Below are positions 44,557 through 56,426 of a DNA stretch of 64,000 nt, one piece after another. Positions within the stretch are counted from its first letter, which is position 1. Each line of letters begins with the position of its first letter. A program made the position numbers and the translations under genes. Location: positions 1-64,000 of the forward strand of contig NZ_JANAIE010000008.1 in assembly GCF_029664245.1 (NCBI RefSeq), written 5' to 3'. Origin of the DNA: Profundicola chukchiensis. GTDB lineage: Bacteria > Bacteroidota > Bacteroidia > Flavobacteriales > Weeksellaceae. The notes beneath the pieces were generated by a model. It did not search any database, was not told where the DNA came from, and saw only the letters and a program-made list of their open reading frames with translations.

Positions 44557-44581
44557 CTAATTGAAATTAAAAAACATTGAA

Positions 44582-45010: not shown

Positions 45011-45032
45011 TTTTTAACACACAAAAAAACAC

Positions 45033-45066
45033 AAAGTGCCCCTTCTGTAAGAGGCACTTTTTTTTT
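45033..45066 (+). terminator. terminator of the acidic lipoprotein gene
   Basis: AAAGTGCC pairs with GGCACTTT (45033-45040 with 45053-45060) with an inner CTT-AAG extension. A run of nine T residues follows. Confidence 0.88.
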
Positions 45067-45101
45067 GCTCAAAACTCAAATGAAATTTAAATACTAAAAC
45101 T

Positions 45102-45132
45102 AAAAAAGCCACTTCTTCAATGAAATGGCTTT
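45102..45132 (-). terminator. terminator of the flavoprotein gene
   Basis: On the minus strand a stem AAGCCATTTC/GAAGTGGCTT is followed by a T run. It lies about 40 bases past the stop at 45171. Confidence 0.7.
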
Positions 45133-45170
45133 CTAATATTAATTAAATATTATTTAAATCCACCTGGACT

Positions 45171-46868
45171 TTAGGACTCAGCAATATGTTTTGCAGCAAT
45201 ATATCCAAAAACAATTCCCTGACCGATGGTGGCTCCTGCACCTGGATAAGATTTACCAAATACGTTGGCTGCATTATTACCAATAGCATATAAACCATCA
45301 ATTACGCTACCGTCTGGGCGCAAAGCTCTACCTAATTCATCGGCTTTAATTCCGCCACAAGTACCTAAGTCAGATAAAACCATCTTAACTGCATAGAGTG
45401 TTTTAGAAGAATCTAATGGGCGTAAATTTGGATTTGGTTTTATAGTTGGATCACCATAATATCTATCATACGCACTATCTCCACGCTGGAATTCTGTGTC
45501 TTTTCCTTTTTCGGCCATTTGATTAAACTTCTGGAAGGTTGCTTCAAACTTTTCTGCTGGAACTCCAATCGCTTTGGCTAAGGCTGCTGGTGATTCTGCT
45601 TTATGCACAATTCCTGCCTCGTACCACTCTTCAGGGAAAGGCGCATAAGGGAAAACGGATCCACCAAATAAATAGCTATTCTTGTATTTAGTATCCAATA
45701 TAATGTACATGTCATCAATGGGACGACCTTCCTTTTCTAGTTCAAAAATCTTTTGCCCAAAGGTCATATAATCTGTTGCTTCATTGATGAATCTCTCTCC
45801 ATCTTGATTAATAATAAAACTACCCGGCAATGAACGTTCGGCTAACATTACTTGAACTTGTCCTCCTTTTTTGAAAGGAGCAATCGCCGGGAACCACCAA
45901 GCTTGATCCATTAAAGCCTTATCAGCTCCAATTTTTTCTGCTATTTTAATTCCATCTCCTGTATTGCCTTCGGCACCTAAACTATATTCTCTTTTGCTAA
46001 ATCTATCTGAATTATGCTTAATACGCATTTCTTGATCGTGGTCAAATCCACCAGTTGCGAGAATTACTCCTTTATTAGCGCGAATTGTAACTTCTTGGCC
46101 ATCTTGAACTGCTTTGACACCTACGATACGATCATTTTCATACATCAATTCTTTCATTTCCGTGCGAGTCCAAACAGGGATATCCGCATCAATAACTGCT
46201 TTAAATAATCCCGCCGCCAAGGCTTGTCCACCTGCTTGATAGTTTTTTCCAAGGATTTTTCCCCCAACACCTTTAGATAAGTTTTTTAAGATTATAGGCA
46301 AAGCTTGAAACGGCATTCTCATCATTAGATTCAAACGCTTATAAGCATAACCAGTAATAGGCATTGGAACAGAAGCCTCCATCACTCCAGGTCTGAATCG
46401 ATTAAATTCTTCGCCTAAAGAAGCTACGTTAAAAGGTTTGTATTCAACACTTCGCCCCATAGGCTTACCTCCTGGGTTTTCTGGATGATAATCTGAATAA
46501 CCCTTAGACCACATAAAATCTAAATCGGTGTTTTCTCTTAAAAAATTAACTGCGGGATCACCATACTCCAAAAATGCATTCCATCGCTTTTCAGGTGAAT
46601 CTTGGGCTAGAGTAGATAGGTAGGTTTTTCCTTCTTCTAAAGTGTCTTTTTGGCCTTCTTCTAATAAAACTGAGTTCGCAGGAATCCAAAAAGCACCACC
46701 CGATCTAGCTACAGAACCTCCCACAACTTCGGTTTTCTCGATAATTAAAGTGCTTAGACCTCCGCTCTTAGCTTTTAATGCTGCCATCATTCCTGTACCA
46801 GACCCTACAACTAATACATCGACATTTGTGTCTTTAGCTTGAGGTCCTTTTCTAATTTCTTTACTCAT
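45171..46868 (-). CDS. 3-ketosteroid-delta-1-dehydrogenase-like FAD-dependent oxidoreductase
   Basis: The 565-residue flavoprotein has the FAD-binding start VDVLVVGSGTGMMAALKAK near 17-35, GGSVARSGGAFWIP, the second FAD segment ANKGVILATGGFDHD, and the C-terminal FAD motif LYAIGNNAAN..GKSYPGAGATIGQG. The segments PGGKPMGRSVEYKPF and DLGTCGGIK are those of 3-oxosteroid 1-dehydrogenases rather than fumarate reductases. Such enzymes desaturate ring A of steroids. No other steroid gene is near, so the substrate is open. It has no signal peptide and stands alone between two terminators or gaps. Confidence 0.85.
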   Translation of the reverse strand: MSKEIRKGPQAKDTNVDVLVVGSGTGMMAALKAKSGGLSTLIIEKTEVVGGSVARSGGAFWIPANSVLLEEGQKDTLEEGKTYLSTLAQDSPEKRWNAFLEYGDPAVNFLRENTDLDFMWSKGYSDYHPENPGGKPMGRSVEYKPFNVASLGEEFNRFRPGVMEASVPMPITGYAYKRLNLMMRMPFQALPIILKNLSKGVGGKILGKNYQAGGQALAAGLFKAVIDADIPVWTRTEMKELMYENDRIVGVKAVQDGQEVTIRANKGVILATGGFDHDQEMRIKHNSDRFSKREYSLGAEGNTGDGIKIAEKIGADKALMDQAWWFPAIAPFKKGGQVQVMLAERSLPGSFIINQDGERFINEATDYMTFGQKIFELEKEGRPIDDMYIILDTKYKNSYLFGGSVFPYAPFPEEWYEAGIVHKAESPAALAKAIGVPAEKFEATFQKFNQMAEKGKDTEFQRGDSAYDRYYGDPTIKPNPNLRPLDSSKTLYAVKMVLSDLGTCGGIKADELGRALRPDGSVIDGLYAIGNNAANVFGKSYPGAGATIGQGIVFGYIAAKHIAES

Positions 46869-47265
46869 TTTATATTATGTTTTTTATTTAAGAGATATCA
46901 AAATTGGAAATCTTAAATATGTTCCAAGTTTTAATAAGACTTTATGCTTGCAAATTGTATTCCTTAATAACTGAAAACTAGTTTGAGATGAAACTAAGTA
47001 GTTGATAAAGTGTAGAGTATTTTCTTTTAATTAAAAAATACTTAGAATATCAACTTCAAACTTTATGAGTTTAACTTAAATGTTAAAACATTGCTTTGAA
47101 AACTTTCTAAATTCAAGCCTCTTATGAATTGTTAAATTATGAATTATGAAAATAAATAGTTGAATTATTGTTGTTTTATGAGTAATTAAAACTATTTAAT
47201 GAGCAAGTTTTAGTTTTTATAATTATTTCTTAAGTTTGAAACTAAACGTTAAAAAAAATTAAATT
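46869..47265. other. gene-free stretch upstream of the large T9SS gene
   Basis: About 400 very AT-rich bases with no credible frame. The only recognised element is the -7 box at 47231-47238. Confidence 0.5.
47231..47238 (+). promoter_or_regulatory. -7 box of the large T9SS gene
   Basis: TAAGTTTG fits TAnnTTTG and lies 27 bases before the ATG at 47266. Confidence 0.45.
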
Positions 47266-50200
47266 ATGAGAAACTTTTACTTCTGGACCTTAAGTGTGCT
47301 TTGTAGTACCTTGATGTTCGGTGTTTCCAACAATTCAAACCTTGAAACCAACTCCTCCTTTGGGGCGTGGTATCAAGCAAAGACTTTAAGTCTAGAAAAT
47401 TCATTAAATTATCAAGGTAACTTCAACCATGTGTTTTTCAGGAATAGCGCATTTGCTATGTCTGACTATTGTATACCTTCGGCAACTGTAACTTCAAGAT
47501 ATATTAATAATTTCACAACTGAAGGCGGGCATCAATCTGTTTCTAATCTTGATTCAGGTTTCTCCCCAGACGGATATGGTGATTTCACCGATATGGTCGT
47601 AGAACAGGGGCAAGGCGGTGCAGTTAACTTCTCGGTTAATGTAAGTGGAGGTTCTGCTGGTTTCAGAATCTGGGTTGATTGGAACCAAGATGGAACTTTT
47701 GCAGCAGATGAGGTTGCTTTTCAGACCAGTTCATATTCATTAAGTCATAGTGGATCATTTGAAGTTCCACAGGACGCTATGTTGGGTTCGACAAGAATGA
47801 GAATTGTTAGTCACTGGTTGAGTACAACTGGTGATATAGCACCTTGTGCAACAGGATTTTTATATGGTGAATTCGAAGATTACACTTTTATTGTAACAGA
47901 TGTGTCAGCTTACGATTGTCCTGTATTAGAAGCTAACATTGGTGCTGCATGTGATGATGGGAACCCAAATACAAATAATGATACGGTAAATGAAGATTGT
48001 GAATGTGTTGGTATTCCTGCGGCTGATAATGATGAAGCGTGTGACGCAACTGCTTTAACTTGTGGAGATGTAATTACACAAAGTTTAATCGGAGCTTCTT
48101 CTTCGATAGAAGATAGCTGTAATGGAAGTGGATCGTCTGATGTTTGGTTTAGTTTTGTTGTTGACGGAACTCAAAAAGTAACAGTTGCCGAAACTTCTTC
48201 ATTCGATGCTATTGTGCAATTATTTATAGGTGATGATTGTGGTAACTTAGTTGAAGCAGGAGCGTGTTCTGATATTACGGAAAACTATACGGTTACTGAG
48301 CCTGGAACTTACTATTTTAGAGTTCGTCCATACTCTTCGTTAAATAATGAAGCAGAGATTACCGTAAGTTTAACTTGTGAAGACTTCGACTGTTCGAGTT
48401 TAAATGCGGATATAGGAGATTCTTGTGATGATGGTGATCCAAATACATTAAACGATGTAATAACTGAAGATTGCGAATGTCAAGGAACGCCTTTAGCAGA
48501 AAATAATGAAGCTTGTAACGCAACAGAAATAACTTGTGGAGAGGAGATTTCTCAAAGTTTGGTAGGAGCAGTTGAAACACAAGAAGATACTTGTTATGGA
48601 AGTGGAACTGCAGATGTATGGTTTAGCTTTACAACAGATGGAACTCAATTATATACAATTGCTGAAACTTCGGCATTTGATGCAGTGGTTCAATTATTTA
48701 TGGGTGACGATTGTGGTAATTTAATCGAAGTTGGAGCTTGTTCTGACTTTAATGAGTATTTTACAGTTTCTGATGCTGGAACTTATTACTTCAAAGTTAG
48801 ACCTTATTATTCTTCAGGAAACTCAGGTAACATTACGGTTAGCTTGACTTGCGAAGGATTTGATTGTCAGGAATTGTCTGCAAATATTGGAGACGCTTGT
48901 GATGATGGAAATCCTAATACTGCAAATGATGTGGTGACTGAAGATTGTGAGTGTGTTGGTGTTCCAGCGCCTGTAGATAACTCTTGTGCAAATCCTATTG
49001 CATTAGCTTGTGGAGAGGAGCCTGTAACTTATTCTTCTGCTAGCTCTACCAATATTTCACCAGATGGATGTAGTATCGGAAATAATGGATTATGGTTCTC
49101 ATTTGAAGGAACGGGTGCGGCAATTACGATTACATCTATGGCAAGTTTTGATCATAAAATGTCTATGCAAACTGGATCTTGTGATGATTTAACTTTTATC
49201 GCATGTAAAGACGGTACTATAAATGAGGAAATCTACACGTTAGAATCTACAGTTGCGGGTGAAATGTACTACGTTTATATCGCACATTATAGCTCATATA
49301 CTAACGCAACAGGAAGTATTTCTGTTAGTATAGATTGTGCTGAAGTGCCAGATTGTACAGCTCCAACCTTAAGTTTAACAACTCAAGATGCTAATGGTGA
49401 TGAAATCGATTGTTTAGATGCAGATGGTGAGTTCTTTGTTGTAGCTAGTCTATCTGGTGGATCAGGAAATGATAACTACAGTTTATCTGCCAATGGTGGT
49501 GAGGCTGTTGAAGTAGCAGCTGATGCTTCGCATACTTTCGGTCCTTTTGCGGCAGGAACAGATGTAGAAGTTGTAGCAACTGGTGTTGAAGATAATTTAT
49601 GTAGTGTAACAGAAGCAGCTGATGCACCGGCTAATTGTCCTCCAGTAAACGAAACTTGTGATGGTGCAATTGCTTTAGAATGTAATGCAGAACCTGTAAC
49701 GTATTCTTCGGCTGGTTCTTCAGCGACTTCACCAAGTGGATGTAATTTAGGAAATAACGGAATTTGGTTCTCGTTCGAAGGAACAGGAGCTGATATTAGC
49801 ATTGTTTCATCAGCTAGTTTTGATCACGAAATGTCTATTAATACAGGTACGTGTGATGCTTTAGTGAATGTCGGATGTAAAGATAGTTCTACAGGAGAGG
49901 AAACATATACAGTAGAAGATACGGTAGAAGGTCAAATGTACTATGTATATATTGCTCATTGGAATGTTGGAAGTACAACTACAGGTACAATCACTATTGC
50001 TATCGAATGCGAAGAAGTTGTAGTTGATGATGTTGTTGCACCAACAGTTGTTACACAAGATGTGACAGTAGAATTAGATGAAAATGGAATGGCTTCAATT
50101 TCAGCTGACGAAGTTAATAATGGTTCTTCTGATGATGTAACTACAAGCGAAAACTTAGTTATGAGTTTAGATGTAACAAGCTTTGATTGTTCAAATGTTG

Positions 50201-50763
50201 GTGAGAATACAGTAACTTTAACTGTAACTGATGAGGCTGGAAATAGTGCAACAGGAACTGCAGTTGTTACGGTTGAGGATAACTTGGCGCCAGTAATTAC
50301 AACTGAAGATTTAATGATTGGATTAGAAGGTAATGCTTCTGTTTCTATCATGGTTGAAGATGTTGCAACGGCTACAGATAACTGTGGTGGTGATGTAACT
50401 ATTACTTTAAGTCAAGATGAGTTTACTGAATTAGGAGAATATACGGTAACGGTTACTGCTACGGATGCTAATGGAAATACATCTACGGAGACAGTTACTG
50501 TAACGGTAGTTGAAACTATGGGTGTTAACGATTTTGCTTCTAGAAAAGGAGTTGAAGTATATCCAAACCCGTCTAGCGATTTTGTTCAAATCAAGTCTGA
50601 TGTTGAAGTTGATTTTGTTCAAGTTTATAGCTTAACAGGTCAATTAGTTAAAACTGTAAAATCGAATAAAGTTGATTTAAGAGGTTTTGTAAGTGGAAAC
50701 TATGTATTGAAAGTTCAAACAAAAGATGGTGGACAAGTTTCTAAGAAATTAATCGTTAAATAA
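47266..50763 (+). CDS. large modular secreted protein (GEVED, repeated modules, HYR, T9SS domain)
   Basis: The 1165-residue protein has a signal peptide, a GEVED domain (about 66-215, with WVDWNQDGTF and GEFEDYTF), and two 158-residue repeats (217-374, 375-532). Each repeat has a CDDGxPNTxND..EDCEC knot and a Cys-linked beta domain (DVWFSF..DDCGNL..C). A third, diverged copy starts at 533, followed by a spacer and another related domain (about 795-925). Two HYR-like beta repeats (about 930-1085, AGNSATGTAVVTV and ANGNTSTETVTVTV) and a T9SS sorting domain (VYPNPSSDFVQIK to SKKLIVK) end the protein. It is probably a surface adhesin or matrix protein; no catalytic motif is visible. Confidence 0.92.
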   Translation: MRNFYFWTLSVLCSTLMFGVSNNSNLETNSSFGAWYQAKTLSLENSLNYQGNFNHVFFRNSAFAMSDYCIPSATVTSRYINNFTTEGGHQSVSNLDSGFSPDGYGDFTDMVVEQGQGGAVNFSVNVSGGSAGFRIWVDWNQDGTFAADEVAFQTSSYSLSHSGSFEVPQDAMLGSTRMRIVSHWLSTTGDIAPCATGFLYGEFEDYTFIVTDVSAYDCPVLEANIGAACDDGNPNTNNDTVNEDCECVGIPAADNDEACDATALTCGDVITQSLIGASSSIEDSCNGSGSSDVWFSFVVDGTQKVTVAETSSFDAIVQLFIGDDCGNLVEAGACSDITENYTVTEPGTYYFRVRPYSSLNNEAEITVSLTCEDFDCSSLNADIGDSCDDGDPNTLNDVITEDCECQGTPLAENNEACNATEITCGEEISQSLVGAVETQEDTCYGSGTADVWFSFTTDGTQLYTIAETSAFDAVVQLFMGDDCGNLIEVGACSDFNEYFTVSDAGTYYFKVRPYYSSGNSGNITVSLTCEGFDCQELSANIGDACDDGNPNTANDVVTEDCECVGVPAPVDNSCANPIALACGEEPVTYSSASSTNISPDGCSIGNNGLWFSFEGTGAAITITSMASFDHKMSMQTGSCDDLTFIACKDGTINEEIYTLESTVAGEMYYVYIAHYSSYTNATGSISVSIDCAEVPDCTAPTLSLTTQDANGDEIDCLDADGEFFVVASLSGGSGNDNYSLSANGGEAVEVAADASHTFGPFAAGTDVEVVATGVEDNLCSVTEAADAPANCPPVNETCDGAIALECNAEPVTYSSAGSSATSPSGCNLGNNGIWFSFEGTGADISIVSSASFDHEMSINTGTCDALVNVGCKDSSTGEETYTVEDTVEGQMYYVYIAHWNVGSTTTGTITIAIECEEVVVDDVVAPTVVTQDVTVELDENGMASISADEVNNGSSDDVTTSENLVMSLDVTSFDCSNVGENTVTLTVTDEAGNSATGTAVVTVEDNLAPVITTEDLMIGLEGNASVSIMVEDVATATDNCGGDVTITLSQDEFTELGEYTVTVTATDANGNTSTETVTVTVVETMGVNDFASRKGVEVYPNPSSDFVQIKSDVEVDFVQVYSLTGQLVKTVKSNKVDLRGFVSGNYVLKVQTKDGGQVSKKLIVK
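47914..48861 (+). repeat. two tandem 474-bp repeats inside the large T9SS gene
   Basis: 47914-48387 and 48388-48861 encode the two 158-residue modules in the same register, each beginning with the same Asp-Cys pattern. A third copy of the first 50 codons follows from 48862. They have diverged in sequence, so recombination between them is less likely than in perfect repeats. Confidence 0.75.
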
Positions 50764-50780
50764 TTTCATATAAATGTTGA

Positions 50781-50806
50781 AAGGCTCCTTCGGGGGCCTT
50801 TTTTTA
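50781..50806 (+). terminator. terminator of the large T9SS gene
   Basis: AAGGCTCC pairs with GGGGCCTT (one G-U pair) around the very stable TTCG loop and is followed by a run of seven T residues. It lies about 17 bases past the stop. Confidence 0.92.
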
Positions 50807-50987
50807 TGTCTAAAAACAAGTGATTTGGTGTAAATGTGACCTTCAAACTAGAAGAATTGAATAGTTAATATTAAATTTATAATGTTAATTTAATATTTGG
50901 GAAATGTTTAAGTAACAATAACTACTTTAGCACCCCCTAATTCAACTTTATTTTTTGAAACTGAATCTCCCAACATATTGGTATATC

Positions 50988-51803
50988 ATGGCGACTTATT
51001 TAATGATAAGTTTGGTCGCTGCTATTTTCTATTTACCTGAATCATCAGGTTTAAATACGATTCTACTCAATAGATTGGTATTCGTGGGATTGCTATTGTT
51101 GGTTTTGTATTTAAAAACAAGAATAAAAGATCAGCTATTTCAATTGATAAGTTTGATTAGTGTTTATGCGTTTTTGGGAAGTGTTTACTCAGAAACTGCT
51201 ATACTGAATACGATGTTTTTTGAAAAGCAAGATGCTTTAGTATCGCATTGGGATGAGGTTTTGTTTGGGTTTCAGCCAGCTCTAGAATTTTCTAAACAAT
51301 ATAGATCTATGTTGTTTAGTGAACTTATGTTTATGGGCTATTTTTCTTATTATCTCATGCCTTTATTTATAATTTTTTCACTTTATAAATCAGGAAAGCT
51401 TAATCATTTTGGGTTTTTATTAATAGGCTCTTTTGTTTTGTATTATCTTGTATTTATACTATTTCCAGTTGCGGGACCACAGTTTTATTTTGACTATCCA
51501 GAGAATCATATTCAAGCGCAAGGATGGTTTGCTAAAGGCGTTAAGCTAATTCAGCAAATAGGAGAGGCGCCTACTGCTGCATTCCCGAGTTCGCATGTGG
51601 GAGTGACCGTAATTATGCTATTATTTTTAAATCAATATTTCAAAAAGTTACTTATTTATATTATTCCATTTGCCCTTGTTCTATTCTTTTCAACGGTCTA
51701 TATAAAGGCGCATTATGCAGTAGACGTATTTGCAGGTATTGTATCGGGATGGGTAATTTATAAGACTTTAAACTCAATTTATTTATCATCTCAAAAGCCT
51801 TAA
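50988..51803 (+). CDS. PAP2-superfamily membrane phosphatase
   Basis: The 271-residue membrane protein has about six hydrophobic segments and the three PAP2 motif regions: PVAGPQFYFDYPE, AAFPSSHVG with the nucleophile-region His, and KAHYAVDVFAG with the catalytic His. Related proteins dephosphorylate lipid phosphates or transfer head groups, as in inositol-phosphorylceramide synthases. A TTG at 50955 would add 11 residues but overlaps a promoter-like TATTTTTTG, so I prefer the ATG at 50988. It ends 4 bases before the next gene and is probably cotranscribed with it. Confidence 0.85.
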   Translation: MATYLMISLVAAIFYLPESSGLNTILLNRLVFVGLLLLVLYLKTRIKDQLFQLISLISVYAFLGSVYSETAILNTMFFEKQDALVSHWDEVLFGFQPALEFSKQYRSMLFSELMFMGYFSYYLMPLFIIFSLYKSGKLNHFGFLLIGSFVLYYLVFILFPVAGPQFYFDYPENHIQAQGWFAKGVKLIQQIGEAPTAAFPSSHVGVTVIMLLFLNQYFKKLLIYIIPFALVLFFSTVYIKAHYAVDVFAGIVSGWVIYKTLNSIYLSSQKP

Positions 51804-51807
51804 GCTT

Positions 51808-52935
51808 ATGTCTATAAATGTAAAAGAACTAGAAACTAAATCCGAATGGAAAGAATTCGTCTTTTTGCCAGAGAAGATTCATAAAAATCATTCTAATTGG
51901 TTGCATCCACTATATATGGACGATAAAAAGTTTTTTGATAAAGACCGAAATCCATCCTTTAAAAACAATAAAGCCAAGTTGTTTTTAGCTTTTAATGATC
52001 AACAAGTTGTAGGTAGAATTATGGGTATTATTCCCACGAAATATAATGAGGGAAAAGAAGTTAAGTGCGCTCGATTTTCTTACATGGAATGTTATGAGGA
52101 TAAAGAGGTTTTTGATGCCTTATTAAAGGCTGTTACGGATTGGGCTTTAGCCTTAGATTGTCAAGAATTGATTGGCCCTATGGGGTTTTCAGATAAAGAA
52201 CCACAAGGATTTGTGACCAAAGGTTTTGAGGAGCCAACCATGTTCGTTACGAATTGTACCTATCGTTATATGAAGGAATTTATTGAGGAAAATCAATTTA
52301 ATTCTTTCGTTAAATTACATGAGTATGAAGTTCCCATCGATGAGCAAATAAAAACTCGCTACGAAAAATTTATAGAAAGAGTTTCGCGTAATCAGCAGGT
52401 TAGGTTGCTTGAGTTTAAAAAAGGAAAACAAGTAAAACCTTATGTTTCTGGGGTTTTTGAATTAATTAATAAAACCTATCAGGAGATTTATGGATTTACC
52501 GAAGTCACAGAAGCTGAACGTGATGAGTTTGCCAATCGTTTCTTGCCCTTATTAAATCCGAAATTAATCAAGATTATTGTCGATCAACACGATAAAGTAG
52601 TGGCTTTTGTTATAGCCATGCCAGATTTGAGTGAAGGAATTCGCAAGGCTAGGGGAAGAGTTTATCCTGTAGGCTGGATTCATTTATTGAAGAGTTTTAG
52701 AACTTCTAAAAGGCTTGTTTTGCTGTTAGGAGGAGTAGATCCGGCAATGCAGAATAAAGGTTTAGATGCGATTTTGGCAGAAAGCTTATTTAAATCAGCT
52801 ATTGAATTAGGTTTTAAGACTATGGATAGCCATTTAATCATGAAAGACAACAAAAAAATGATCGCTGAAATCGAAAGGCTTGAAGGTCATCGACTTTGTA
52901 AGGAGTATACTATTTATAAGAAGAGGATTGGGTAA
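51808..52935 (+). CDS. GNAT-like protein of unknown substrate
   Basis: The 375-residue protein has a fold pattern of two acetyltransferase-like halves: KLFLAFNDQQVVGRIMGIIP (about 50-75) and IVDQHDKVVAFVIAMPDL (about 255-275), with a late GGVDPAMQNKGLDAILAES that resembles an acetyl-CoA loop. It is cytoplasmic. Its closest look-alikes are large Bacteroidota GNAT proteins often found with lipid genes. With the PAP2 gene it may modify a lipid, but this is inference. Confidence 0.65.
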   Translation: MSINVKELETKSEWKEFVFLPEKIHKNHSNWLHPLYMDDKKFFDKDRNPSFKNNKAKLFLAFNDQQVVGRIMGIIPTKYNEGKEVKCARFSYMECYEDKEVFDALLKAVTDWALALDCQELIGPMGFSDKEPQGFVTKGFEEPTMFVTNCTYRYMKEFIEENQFNSFVKLHEYEVPIDEQIKTRYEKFIERVSRNQQVRLLEFKKGKQVKPYVSGVFELINKTYQEIYGFTEVTEAERDEFANRFLPLLNPKLIKIIVDQHDKVVAFVIAMPDLSEGIRKARGRVYPVGWIHLLKSFRTSKRLVLLLGGVDPAMQNKGLDAILAESLFKSAIELGFKTMDSHLIMKDNKKMIAEIERLEGHRLCKEYTIYKKRIG

Positions 52936-52997
52936 ATGATTTAAGATGTGATATTTAAGTAAAAATTCATAAATTGTACTACCTAATCTATTTAAGC

Positions 52998-54035
52998 ATG
53001 GAAGTTTTTGCAATTATCATAGTAATCTTAGTTATAATTTTTATTTTTTACTTCTATAAAAGAGTTTCCGCGAAAAGCAATTCTTTAAATAAAGATGTTT
53101 TGGTGAATACTGAATTATCAACTAAGCCTTCAGGAAAAGAAGTTAACGGTTTGGTTCATAATCATGATAATTCATGTAGTAGCGGGATTTATGATCAATT
53201 ATTAGTTTACTTTAGTGATTCCAATGAGTCTTTTTATGAAGATGAAAAATATTTAGATTCACTAAAGTTGGGGTTAGAAGATGAAGAAACGAAACAACAA
53301 ATTGGTCGCGCGCAATTATTTAAATTAATAGGAGAGTACTACGTTGTAAACAATAGAGTTTCTGAAGCTATAAAATCTTGGGAAAAAGCTATAGAAGAAG
53401 ATCCAAAGATTGGTTTAAAATTAAAGCTTAAGAAGTTACAGGATGTATCCGAAATATCAGAGGAGTTAAAACAACAACTACTGAGTAAGAGAAAAGTTAA
53501 AAGGAAAAAGAAAAAGAGAGATTTTAATTGGGTTGTTAAAAATTATATAAGCTTTTTTAACAGGTTTAATATAGACGAGGAGGCTTTAAAATCTAAGTAT
53601 CTTTTATGGAACAAAAACAATTCTCAACCAATTGAGGACTTTGTTTGGTATATGTTTAATTCCATGTTAGATGAGAATGCAAAGAAAAATCAACCTTTAA
53701 ATGAATTTTATCAAAAAAATGCAGAAATATATTCAGAAATGACTTCATTTAGAAGAGTGCATGAAGGTAAAACAGAAAATGAATTATATAAATTATACAA
53801 TGAGAACTCTGTTAAGGCAAATGTATATAATTCAAAAGTTGAATTAGAGGTTGCAATAATAGGAGCTCCGGATTGTATTCAAGGTAGAAAGCTAAATAAA
53901 AAGATGATTTCAGTAGAAGAGGCATTAGAAAATACAATTATTCCTTATGATGAATGTTCTAGAGGAGCATGCATGTGTATGTACTCTGTTGTTTCTAAAC
54001 ATGATTCGGATGGATCTTTGATATTCAAGGAATAG
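52998..54035 (+). CDS. membrane-anchored protein with Cys-rich C-terminal module
   Basis: The product of about 345 residues has one N-terminal membrane segment (MEVFAIIIVILVIIFIFYFY), a helical region with a TPR-like unit (VNNRVSEAIKSWEKAIEEDP), and a lysine-rich stretch (KRKVKRKKKKRD, about 172-183). The C-terminal 55 residues (DCIQGRKLNKKMISVEEALE and then PYDECSRGACMCMY) follow the pattern of a small module I know from many proteobacterial proteins, with a Cys-x4-Cys-x-Cys group that may bind metal. The function is unknown. I use the ATG at 52998; a TTG 24 bases upstream is possible. Confidence 0.7.
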   Translation: MEVFAIIIVILVIIFIFYFYKRVSAKSNSLNKDVLVNTELSTKPSGKEVNGLVHNHDNSCSSGIYDQLLVYFSDSNESFYEDEKYLDSLKLGLEDEETKQQIGRAQLFKLIGEYYVVNNRVSEAIKSWEKAIEEDPKIGLKLKLKKLQDVSEISEELKQQLLSKRKVKRKKKKRDFNWVVKNYISFFNRFNIDEEALKSKYLLWNKNNSQPIEDFVWYMFNSMLDENAKKNQPLNEFYQKNAEIYSEMTSFRRVHEGKTENELYKLYNENSVKANVYNSKVELEVAIIGAPDCIQGRKLNKKMISVEEALENTIIPYDECSRGACMCMYSVVSKHDSDGSLIFKE

Positions 54036-54125
54036 AAGAAAATCTTAGTTCAAACAATATTTTATGTACTAAATCTATCTCTGGTTGCGCATTAGGTGCA
54101 CCTTTTTCTATGCTTAAATTAAGCA

Positions 54126-54155
54126 CAAAAAAAACCTCCTGAAATTCAGGAGGTT
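54126..54155 (-). terminator. terminator of tRNA-Gln
   Basis: On the minus strand an AACCTCCTGA stem and its complement (54133-54155) are followed by eight T residues. It lies 14 bases after the tRNA. Confidence 0.88.
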
Positions 54156-54168
54156 ATCTCATTAATTG

Positions 54169-54239
54169 TAGACCCACAGGGATTCGAACCCCGACAAGCG
54201 GCACCAAAAACCGATGTGCTACCGTTACACCATGGGTCT
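54169..54239 (-). tRNA. tRNA-Gln (anticodon TTG)
   Basis: The minus strand folds into a cloverleaf: acceptor stem AGACCCA/TGGGTCT, D arm with GTGTAACGGTAGCAC, an anticodon loop TTTTGGT giving TTG, T arm GGGGTTCGAATCCC, and discriminator A. No CCA is encoded. It is a single gene with its own terminator. Confidence 0.95.
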
Positions 54240-54392
54240 TTTCGATTAATTCGATTGCAAATATAGAAATTAATTTTTGACTCCACAAAATGAAAATTGA
54301 AAAAAGTTTGAAATTTTTTGAGTTCAAACTTCTAATTCATTCATTACAAATTGGTTCGATAAAATAATTTTTTTCAATGTATTTTATCTTAA

Positions 54393-56426
<2,034 letters not shown>

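Follow-up and report, generated by a model that had tools for sequence, protein, structure and literature searches.

3-Ketosteroid delta-1-dehydrogenases (KstDs) are one of the reference protein groups used to recognise steroid degraders and, in the part of the PMC4810484 survey available to us, steroid degradation pathways are reported only from Actinobacteria and Proteobacteria. The accessible portion of a second survey (PMC5790920) attributes to Bacteroidetes a small share of the matches to pathway proteins and none for hsaC, and mentions KshA homologues from sponge metagenome-assembled genomes (MAGs) classed as Bacteroidetes or Actinobacteria. In the mechanism described for KstD1 of Rhodococcus erythropolis SQ1 (PMC5348764), keto-enol tautomerisation is promoted by Tyr487 and Gly491, the C2 beta proton is abstracted by Tyr119 and Tyr318, and FAD accepts the C1 alpha hydride. 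The same source gives a broad substrate range for the KstD2 isozyme of R. ruber (progesterone, 5-alpha-testosterone, deoxycorticosterone and AD), and the part of PMC5960168 that we could access describes KstD2 of M. neoaurum DSM 1381 as highly active on AD.

Here, we describe a KstD2-type gene in Profundicola chukchiensis (Bacteroidota, Weeksellaceae). The enzyme family is already known and the P. chukchiensis protein is a new member of it in an unusual host. It has in common with the KstD2s of R. ruber, R. erythropolis SQ1 and M. neoaurum a clade that includes an M. neoaurum locus (L079), the residue Cys504 and four catalytic residues. It differs from them in that its host belongs to another phylum and that kshA is neither beside the gene nor found in the genome.

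Results

The gene lies on the reverse strand at positions 45171-46868 of the 64,000-nucleotide stretch of P. chukchiensis DNA that was analysed (the window). The open reading frame (ORF) has an ATG start and no internal stops, and encodes a 565-aa protein that we assign to the FAD-dependent 3-ketosteroid delta-1-dehydrogenases from its profile, residues, tree position and predicted fold, all of which bear out the original prediction of a KstD-like enzyme. The protein scores 848.3 bits (E 2.3e-255) against NF009479 (PRK12845), the NCBIfam equivalog model for 3-ketosteroid-delta-1-dehydrogenase; since this exceeds the curated cut-off of 793, the family match is not a chance one. Among the 25 of 43 matches listed, NF009479 is the best NCBIfam model and all others score under their own cut-offs; for instance, the flavocytochrome c model TIGR01813 reaches 166.9 bits for a cut-off of 285.45. 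The Pfam domain FAD_binding_2 (PF00890) spans residues 17-547 and includes the FAD-binding GSGTG at residues 22-26 (46791-46805, reverse strand). When the P. chukchiensis genome was searched with the protein, the single match was the protein itself.

The KstD catalytic quartet is present as Tyr127 (46488-46490), Tyr367 (45768-45770), Tyr541 (45246-45248) and Gly545 (45234-45236), all on the reverse strand, which correspond to Tyr119, Tyr318, Tyr487 and Gly491 of KstD1-SQ1. These residues were assigned from sequence alignments and not from structural superposition, using MAFFT and phmmer against the 4c3x chain, whose numbering in the phmmer alignment is 20 ahead of that of KstD1-SQ1. Lack of the catalytic tyrosines had been named as an observation that would speak against a KstD; all three are found in both alignments. 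Following the roles given in the accessible text of PMC5348764 and by homology with R. erythropolis KstD1, Tyr541 and Gly545 would act on the 3-keto group and promote its enolisation, Tyr367 together with Tyr127 would remove the axial 2-beta proton and the 1-alpha hydride would be transferred to FAD, yielding a 1(2)-ene-3-ketosteroid. FADH2 would then be reoxidised by some acceptor. The Tyr/Tyr/Tyr/Gly quartet also occurs in the majority of the more distant homologues examined and therefore does not fix the substrate.

The two motifs initially taken as characteristic of KstDs were both located, PGGKPMGRSVEYKPF at residues 132-146 (46431-46475, reverse strand) and DLGTCGGIK at residues 500-508 (45345-45371, reverse strand). 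As a marker, DLGTCGG is a good one, whereas PGGKPMGRSVEYKPF is only partly conserved. The second motif contains Cys504, which marks the clade: in an alignment (A1) of 31 clade loci and four paralogues, position 504 is C in 31/31 actinobacterial clade members and K in 4/4 KstD1-type paralogues. A 12-position string, AYYFYFLYAGAT, is identical in five of the six clade members compared (L009, L006, L079, L038 and L059), the sixth (L033) departing from it at one position, and the string is different in all five other Bacteroidota homologues. The P. chukchiensis protein retains 146 of the 151 positions that are invariant across the 31 clade members; the five altered are L375F, W388Y, F391L, R396K and A421V (clade residue, position, P. 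chukchiensis residue).

The AlphaFold2 model of the protein, built from an input alignment of 36 rows, has a mean pLDDT of 85.3 and a pTM of 0.89, with weak segments at residues 164-171, 183-186 and 199-204. VIA-align 2, run over the top 1000 chains of Foldseek, ranks first 7p18, AcmB of Sterolibacterium denitrificans (Z 56.2, rmsd 2.0, 544 aligned), and second 4c3x, KstD1 of R. erythropolis SQ1 (Z 50.1, rmsd 2.3, 497 aligned). Both have the fold, the catalytic residues and the inferred chemistry in common with the P. chukchiensis protein, but they are 37% and 33% identical to it, respectively, in the structural alignments and belong to other branches of the family. Other KstD1 entries come next, followed by cyclohexanone dehydrogenase (Z 42.6) and urocanate reductase (40.4). 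The cyclohexanone dehydrogenase of Alicycliphilus denitrificans (8am3, 8am6, 8am8) shares the flavoprotein fold and the kind of reaction, but its identity is 26-27%, its structural score lower and its substrate another one. The 3-ketosteroid delta4-(5alpha)-dehydrogenase 4at0, which has the same fold but is 24% identical and desaturates another bond, and a flavocytochrome c3 fumarate reductase both have a Z of 38.9, and fumarate reductases score 38.9 or less. Foldseek itself ranks KstDs first and cyclohexanone dehydrogenase next. Fold likeness by itself shows no function. By predicted fold, KstDs rank ahead of fumarate reductases and of the remaining flavoproteins in the list; placement within a non-steroid flavoprotein clade had been proposed as a refutation.

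In a tree of 59 rows, the P. chukchiensis protein falls with a support of 100/100 inside a clade of 33 rows, made up of itself, 31 loci from the best 80 of 204 retrieved in a genome scan and Nocardia farcinica L105. A repeat tree of 30 rows again groups it at 100/100 with actinobacterial rows, here 23 of the 80 loci, L079 not being among them. The phylogeny suggested in the original prediction thus places the protein in a KstD clade and not in a non-steroid flavoprotein clade, in both trees. L041, in which a frame change or stop interrupts the gene, was left out of the clade rows and is represented by its paralogue. Identity to the 31 aligned clade members is 54-59%, and 33-34% to the four KstD1-type paralogue rows.

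The clade includes L079 (M. neoaurum ATCC 25795), which is about 56% identical to the P. chukchiensis protein and has a divergent kshA upstream and another KstD-family gene downstream. This neighbourhood is the one reported for kstD2 of M. neoaurum DSM 1381 in the portion of PMC5960168 available, and from these neighbours we infer that L079 is a KstD2. Furthermore, 12 of the 13 pocket residues of R. ruber KstD2 are matched by identity in the P. chukchiensis protein, with numbering shifts of 0, -1, +1 and +2, the comparison being made against residues tabulated in the accessible part of PMC5348764 and not by sequence alignment. Pro337 of R. ruber KstD2 is absent and the loop around residues 337-338 differs. 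The KstD1-type paralogues carry the R. ruber KstD1 residues G, W, G, N and P at positions 59, 124, 544, 546 and 547. Judged from its sequence, the P. chukchiensis protein is therefore matched to the KstD2 isozyme, and the ranges of the R. ruber and M. neoaurum KstD2s would be, by analogy, the best guide to its substrate.

Among the 80 actinobacterial loci, 46 have a KshA match in the fetched flank and 34 have none, some flanks ending at contig ends. KshA is the adjacent divergent gene within 800 bases in 34 loci, all mycobacterial by title, and its representative scores 295 bits against KshA_C. HsaB-like matches occur in the flanks of 27/80 loci and HsaD-like ones in 15/80, with the same truncation of some flanks; the representatives of HsaB and HsaD score under the NCBIfam cut-offs. 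A kshA-kstD2 arrangement is reported for R. ruber in the part of PMC5348764 consulted. We considered it as support for the KstD2 assignment and dropped it, as it did not recur among the 13 Rhodococcus loci: KshA is the adjacent divergent gene in none of them, two (L010 and L057) have any KshA flank match and 11 have none. The KstD2 trait of lying beside kshA is lacking in P. chukchiensis, whose genome has no KshA_C match. Adjacency to kshA is a matter of genomic context and not a property of the enzyme, and 34 of the 80 actinobacterial loci are likewise without a flank KshA. In R. aetherivorans (L006:5574-7831), the divergently oriented neighbours of the clade gene are a flavin reductase and a luciferase-like monooxygenase and not KshA; the clade gene thus occurs in several genomic contexts. 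In Demequina, it adjoins a TetR regulator and a short-chain dehydrogenase.

In P. chukchiensis, the neighbours of the KstD gene are genes for a dksA/traR-type zinc-finger protein, a small protein and a secreted protein with a T9SS sorting domain, along with ORFs that we take to be ileS and lspA; the gene is isolated, as originally described. The T9SS protein (47266-50763), encoded next to the KstD gene, has 1165 aa with a GEVED domain and a T9SS C-terminal sorting domain, the latter in keeping with a Bacteroidota host. The contig measures 112 kb and the KstD gene lies 45 kb into it, between the presumed ileS and a further ORF that we read as ligA, which are 79-80% and 75-76% identical to their counterparts in congeners. 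At 39.6%, the GC content of the KstD gene ranks first among the 40 window genes of at least 200 aa, owing to codon positions 1 and 2, whereas its third-position GC is 26.5%, the window median being 28.8%, and its codon usage ranks 20 of 40. Codon bias, considered as a sign of recent transfer, gave a negative result: the gene is host-like, and any transfer would thus be old or well ameliorated.

In two congeners, the ORFs taken as lspA, dksA-like and ileS and the small gene at 44561 have a conserved order. Beyond this small gene, window genes were not found in the next 12-14 kb of either congener, the ORF read as ligA is on another contig than that read as ileS in both, and the window gene at 51808 has only a 28-29% identical relative. 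Synteny thus ends after the gene at 44561, which indicates that the stretch carrying the KstD gene (window 45011-54434) is variable within the genus; a clean empty site was not shown in either of these two congeners. Viral carriage was also sought: four stretches matched the search pattern and none of them encodes a relative. As for expression signals, the Bacteroidota promoter motif TAnnTTTG is absent from the 398 bases upstream on the strand of the gene, and sigma-70 matches nearby are not above chance. Two terminator-like hairpins follow the gene on the reverse strand (45103-45134 and 45033-45060); both are consensus matches at a number not above chance (2 found for 1.7 expected in the region).

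A scan of 84,980 genomes with exact peptide patterns of the query, a design that may miss divergent members, gave 204 loci, of which the best 80 are all actinobacterial by title and 53-59% identical to the P. chukchiensis protein. At E 1e-30, matches were found in 4/149 relatives, 1/395 genomes of the phylum sample, 4/395 of the order sample and 2/395 of the class sample; these samples overlap and the counts include the P. chukchiensis genome. Neither of its two congeners has a match at this threshold. The five other Bacteroidota homologues, L002 (43% identical), L003 and L103 (41%), L004 (40%) and L104 (30%), all fall outside the 33-row clade and have other pocket residues; L002, from the family of the host, and L104 have long branches and are flagged as unsure in the 59-row tree. 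Demequina flava pairs with the P. chukchiensis protein with supports of 88/54 in the 59-row tree and 98/88 in the 30-row tree. In an AU test, P. chukchiensis as sister to all 23 actinobacterial rows was not rejected (p 0.0912), which makes the exact position, and any one donor, tentative, and the P. chukchiensis row has an unusual amino-acid make-up in both trees. Acquisition by transfer, which had been suggested as one possibility, is supported by this phylogeny and by the patchy distribution. In the open-access literature searched, we found no paper on a Bacteroidota KstD2, which is not proof of absence.

Different KstD-like genes of Bacteroidota have neighbourhoods of their own. In two genomes of the host's order (L097:7432-11405 and L098:8619-11682), a gene 40-41% identical to that of P. 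chukchiensis forms a compact cassette with a divergent TetR gene and one or two short-chain dehydrogenase genes, resembling the TetR and short-chain dehydrogenase pair of Demequina. In genome G019, from the host's family, the 43% identical homologue (L096:3386-10017) adjoins glycogen-type genes: a GlgC-like gene, a starch synthase and a branching-type amylase. L004 (G135:C25:26248-27882) has one in-frame TAA near its start and entered the alignment with X at this stop; it may start downstream (ORF 9422-10894 in L098), be a pseudogene or reflect a sequencing error.

The search for kstD partners recommended with the original prediction was run on the whole P. chukchiensis genome (estimated completeness 99.96%) with KshA_C, TIGR03213 and SQHop_cyclase_C (PF13243). 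KshA_C has no match in it. This search was well controlled, since one to five KshA_C matches were found in 10 of 14 actinobacterial genomes with a clade gene, chosen from the 80 loci to span the tree. The extradiol dioxygenase model TIGR03213, used as the query in place of HsaC itself, has no match in P. chukchiensis either (E 0.001), and no control genome was over the cut-off. With neither KshA nor a TIGR03213-type dioxygenase found in the genome, the 9,10-seco pathway is unlikely; without KshA, this pathway cannot pass on the delta-1 product in the known way. Steroid or hopanoid synthesis was considered as an internal source of substrate and rejected, SQHop_cyclase_C being absent from the P. 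chukchiensis genome; one weak match, over the cut-off, occurs in G135.

The four actinobacterial genomes without a KshA_C match are those of Demequina flava, a Nanopelagicales MAG, a Mobilicoccus MAG and Leifsonia sp. Root4, for which completeness is not given; two of them being MAGs, the absence of KshA is weaker there. In the 59-row tree, three of the four are the closest rows to P. chukchiensis or branch at the clade base. Leifsonia is in another subclade, of which the other members tested (Actinoplanes, Pseudonocardia and Sciscionella) have KshA.

Discussion

A lone gene whose closest relatives found are actinobacterial, in a genome where the degradation genes sought are absent, makes both transfer and the alteration of steroids without their breakdown probable. 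We therefore consider it probable that P. chukchiensis acquired a KstD2-type enzyme horizontally from an actinobacterium and kept it without steroid partners, for the stand-alone delta-1 desaturation of exogenous 3-ketosteroids. As far as sequence comparison goes, transfer appears well supported and Actinobacteria as its source the best reading. Activity, substrate, direction of transfer and role are what we infer. Desaturation of exogenous 3-ketosteroids could serve as detoxification or be a first step whose product is used by other organisms, and the gene would not serve growth on steroids. Provided that the enzyme assignment is right, the chances that stand-alone modification of outside steroids is its role are about even. 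A lone KstD2 is consistent with the two surveys cited above (PMC4810484 and PMC5790920), as far as their accessible parts go.

Other explanations concern mainly what the enzyme does. It might have drifted, with the same chemistry, to a non-steroid cyclic ketone, as in dehydrogenases of the cyclohexanone or 4-oxocyclohexanecarboxylate type. Such enzymes are closely related to it in fold and profile, and the absence of every steroid partner sought would fit; however, ChcC-type NCBIfam models give 354 and 309 bits for cut-offs of 900 and 1000 whereas the KstD model passes, and the pocket matches that of the KstD2 clade in its residues. Neither the profile scores nor the pocket residues favour the alternative left by the original prediction, that of another ketone as substrate, and it seems unlikely on these grounds. 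We also find it quite unlikely that the gene encodes one step of an unrecognised steroid catabolic pathway, for instance an oxygenase-independent or divergent route. The genome-wide search covered KshA_C, one extradiol dioxygenase model and the C-terminal domain of squalene/sterol cyclases, which leaves room for such a route, but KshA_C and TIGR03213 had no match, no steroid cluster was recognised around the gene, and the surveyed portions of PMC4810484 and PMC5790920 confine degradation to Actinobacteria and Proteobacteria and give no hsaC in Bacteroidetes, respectively. Mainly reverse catalysis, whether 1,2-hydrogenation by a delta-1 reductase or transhydrogenation, has a precedent in AcmB, a KstD that does both directions in vitro according to the available text of PMC9736390. 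In the same text, however, AcmB hydrogenation is 46-fold slower at the respective pH optima, 254-fold slower in a pH 6.5 assay and about 30-fold slower in a 60-min reactor test, and uses an artificial donor. No donor partner was recognised beside the P. chukchiensis gene, and we regard this function as very unlikely.

Two further explanations concern the origin of the gene. The other KstD-like genes present in the same order and class could suggest that the gene was inherited vertically in Bacteroidota from ancient times and lost in almost all lineages. Those five are only 30-43% identical and outside the clade, which is otherwise actinobacterial in the rows sampled, and both congeners are without a match; such an inheritance is highly improbable. 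The phylogenetic position of the protein would also be expected from contamination of the assembly by an actinobacterium. The location of the gene deep inside its contig, its host-like flanks, third-position GC and codon usage argue against this, and its probability is close to negligible.

Besides the probable acquisition and retention by P. chukchiensis of an actinobacterial KstD2, a more general and more tentative reading is that stand-alone KstD2s function outside catabolism, as resistance or signal-modifying enzymes acting on steroids made by eukaryotes. They would then have been kept in Demequina, the Nanopelagicales MAG, the Mobilicoccus MAG and Leifsonia, where KshA was not found, as well as in P. 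chukchiensis, and the Bacteroidota KstD-like genes accompanied by TetR and short-chain dehydrogenases might represent the same solution reached again. Of greater interest is that KstD2 genes occur where KshA was not found. Their presence in P. chukchiensis and in four actinobacterial genomes with no KshA match suggests that surveys relying on KstD as their sole marker can be misled, and hints at the modification of steroids without breakdown in organisms that are not counted as steroid users.
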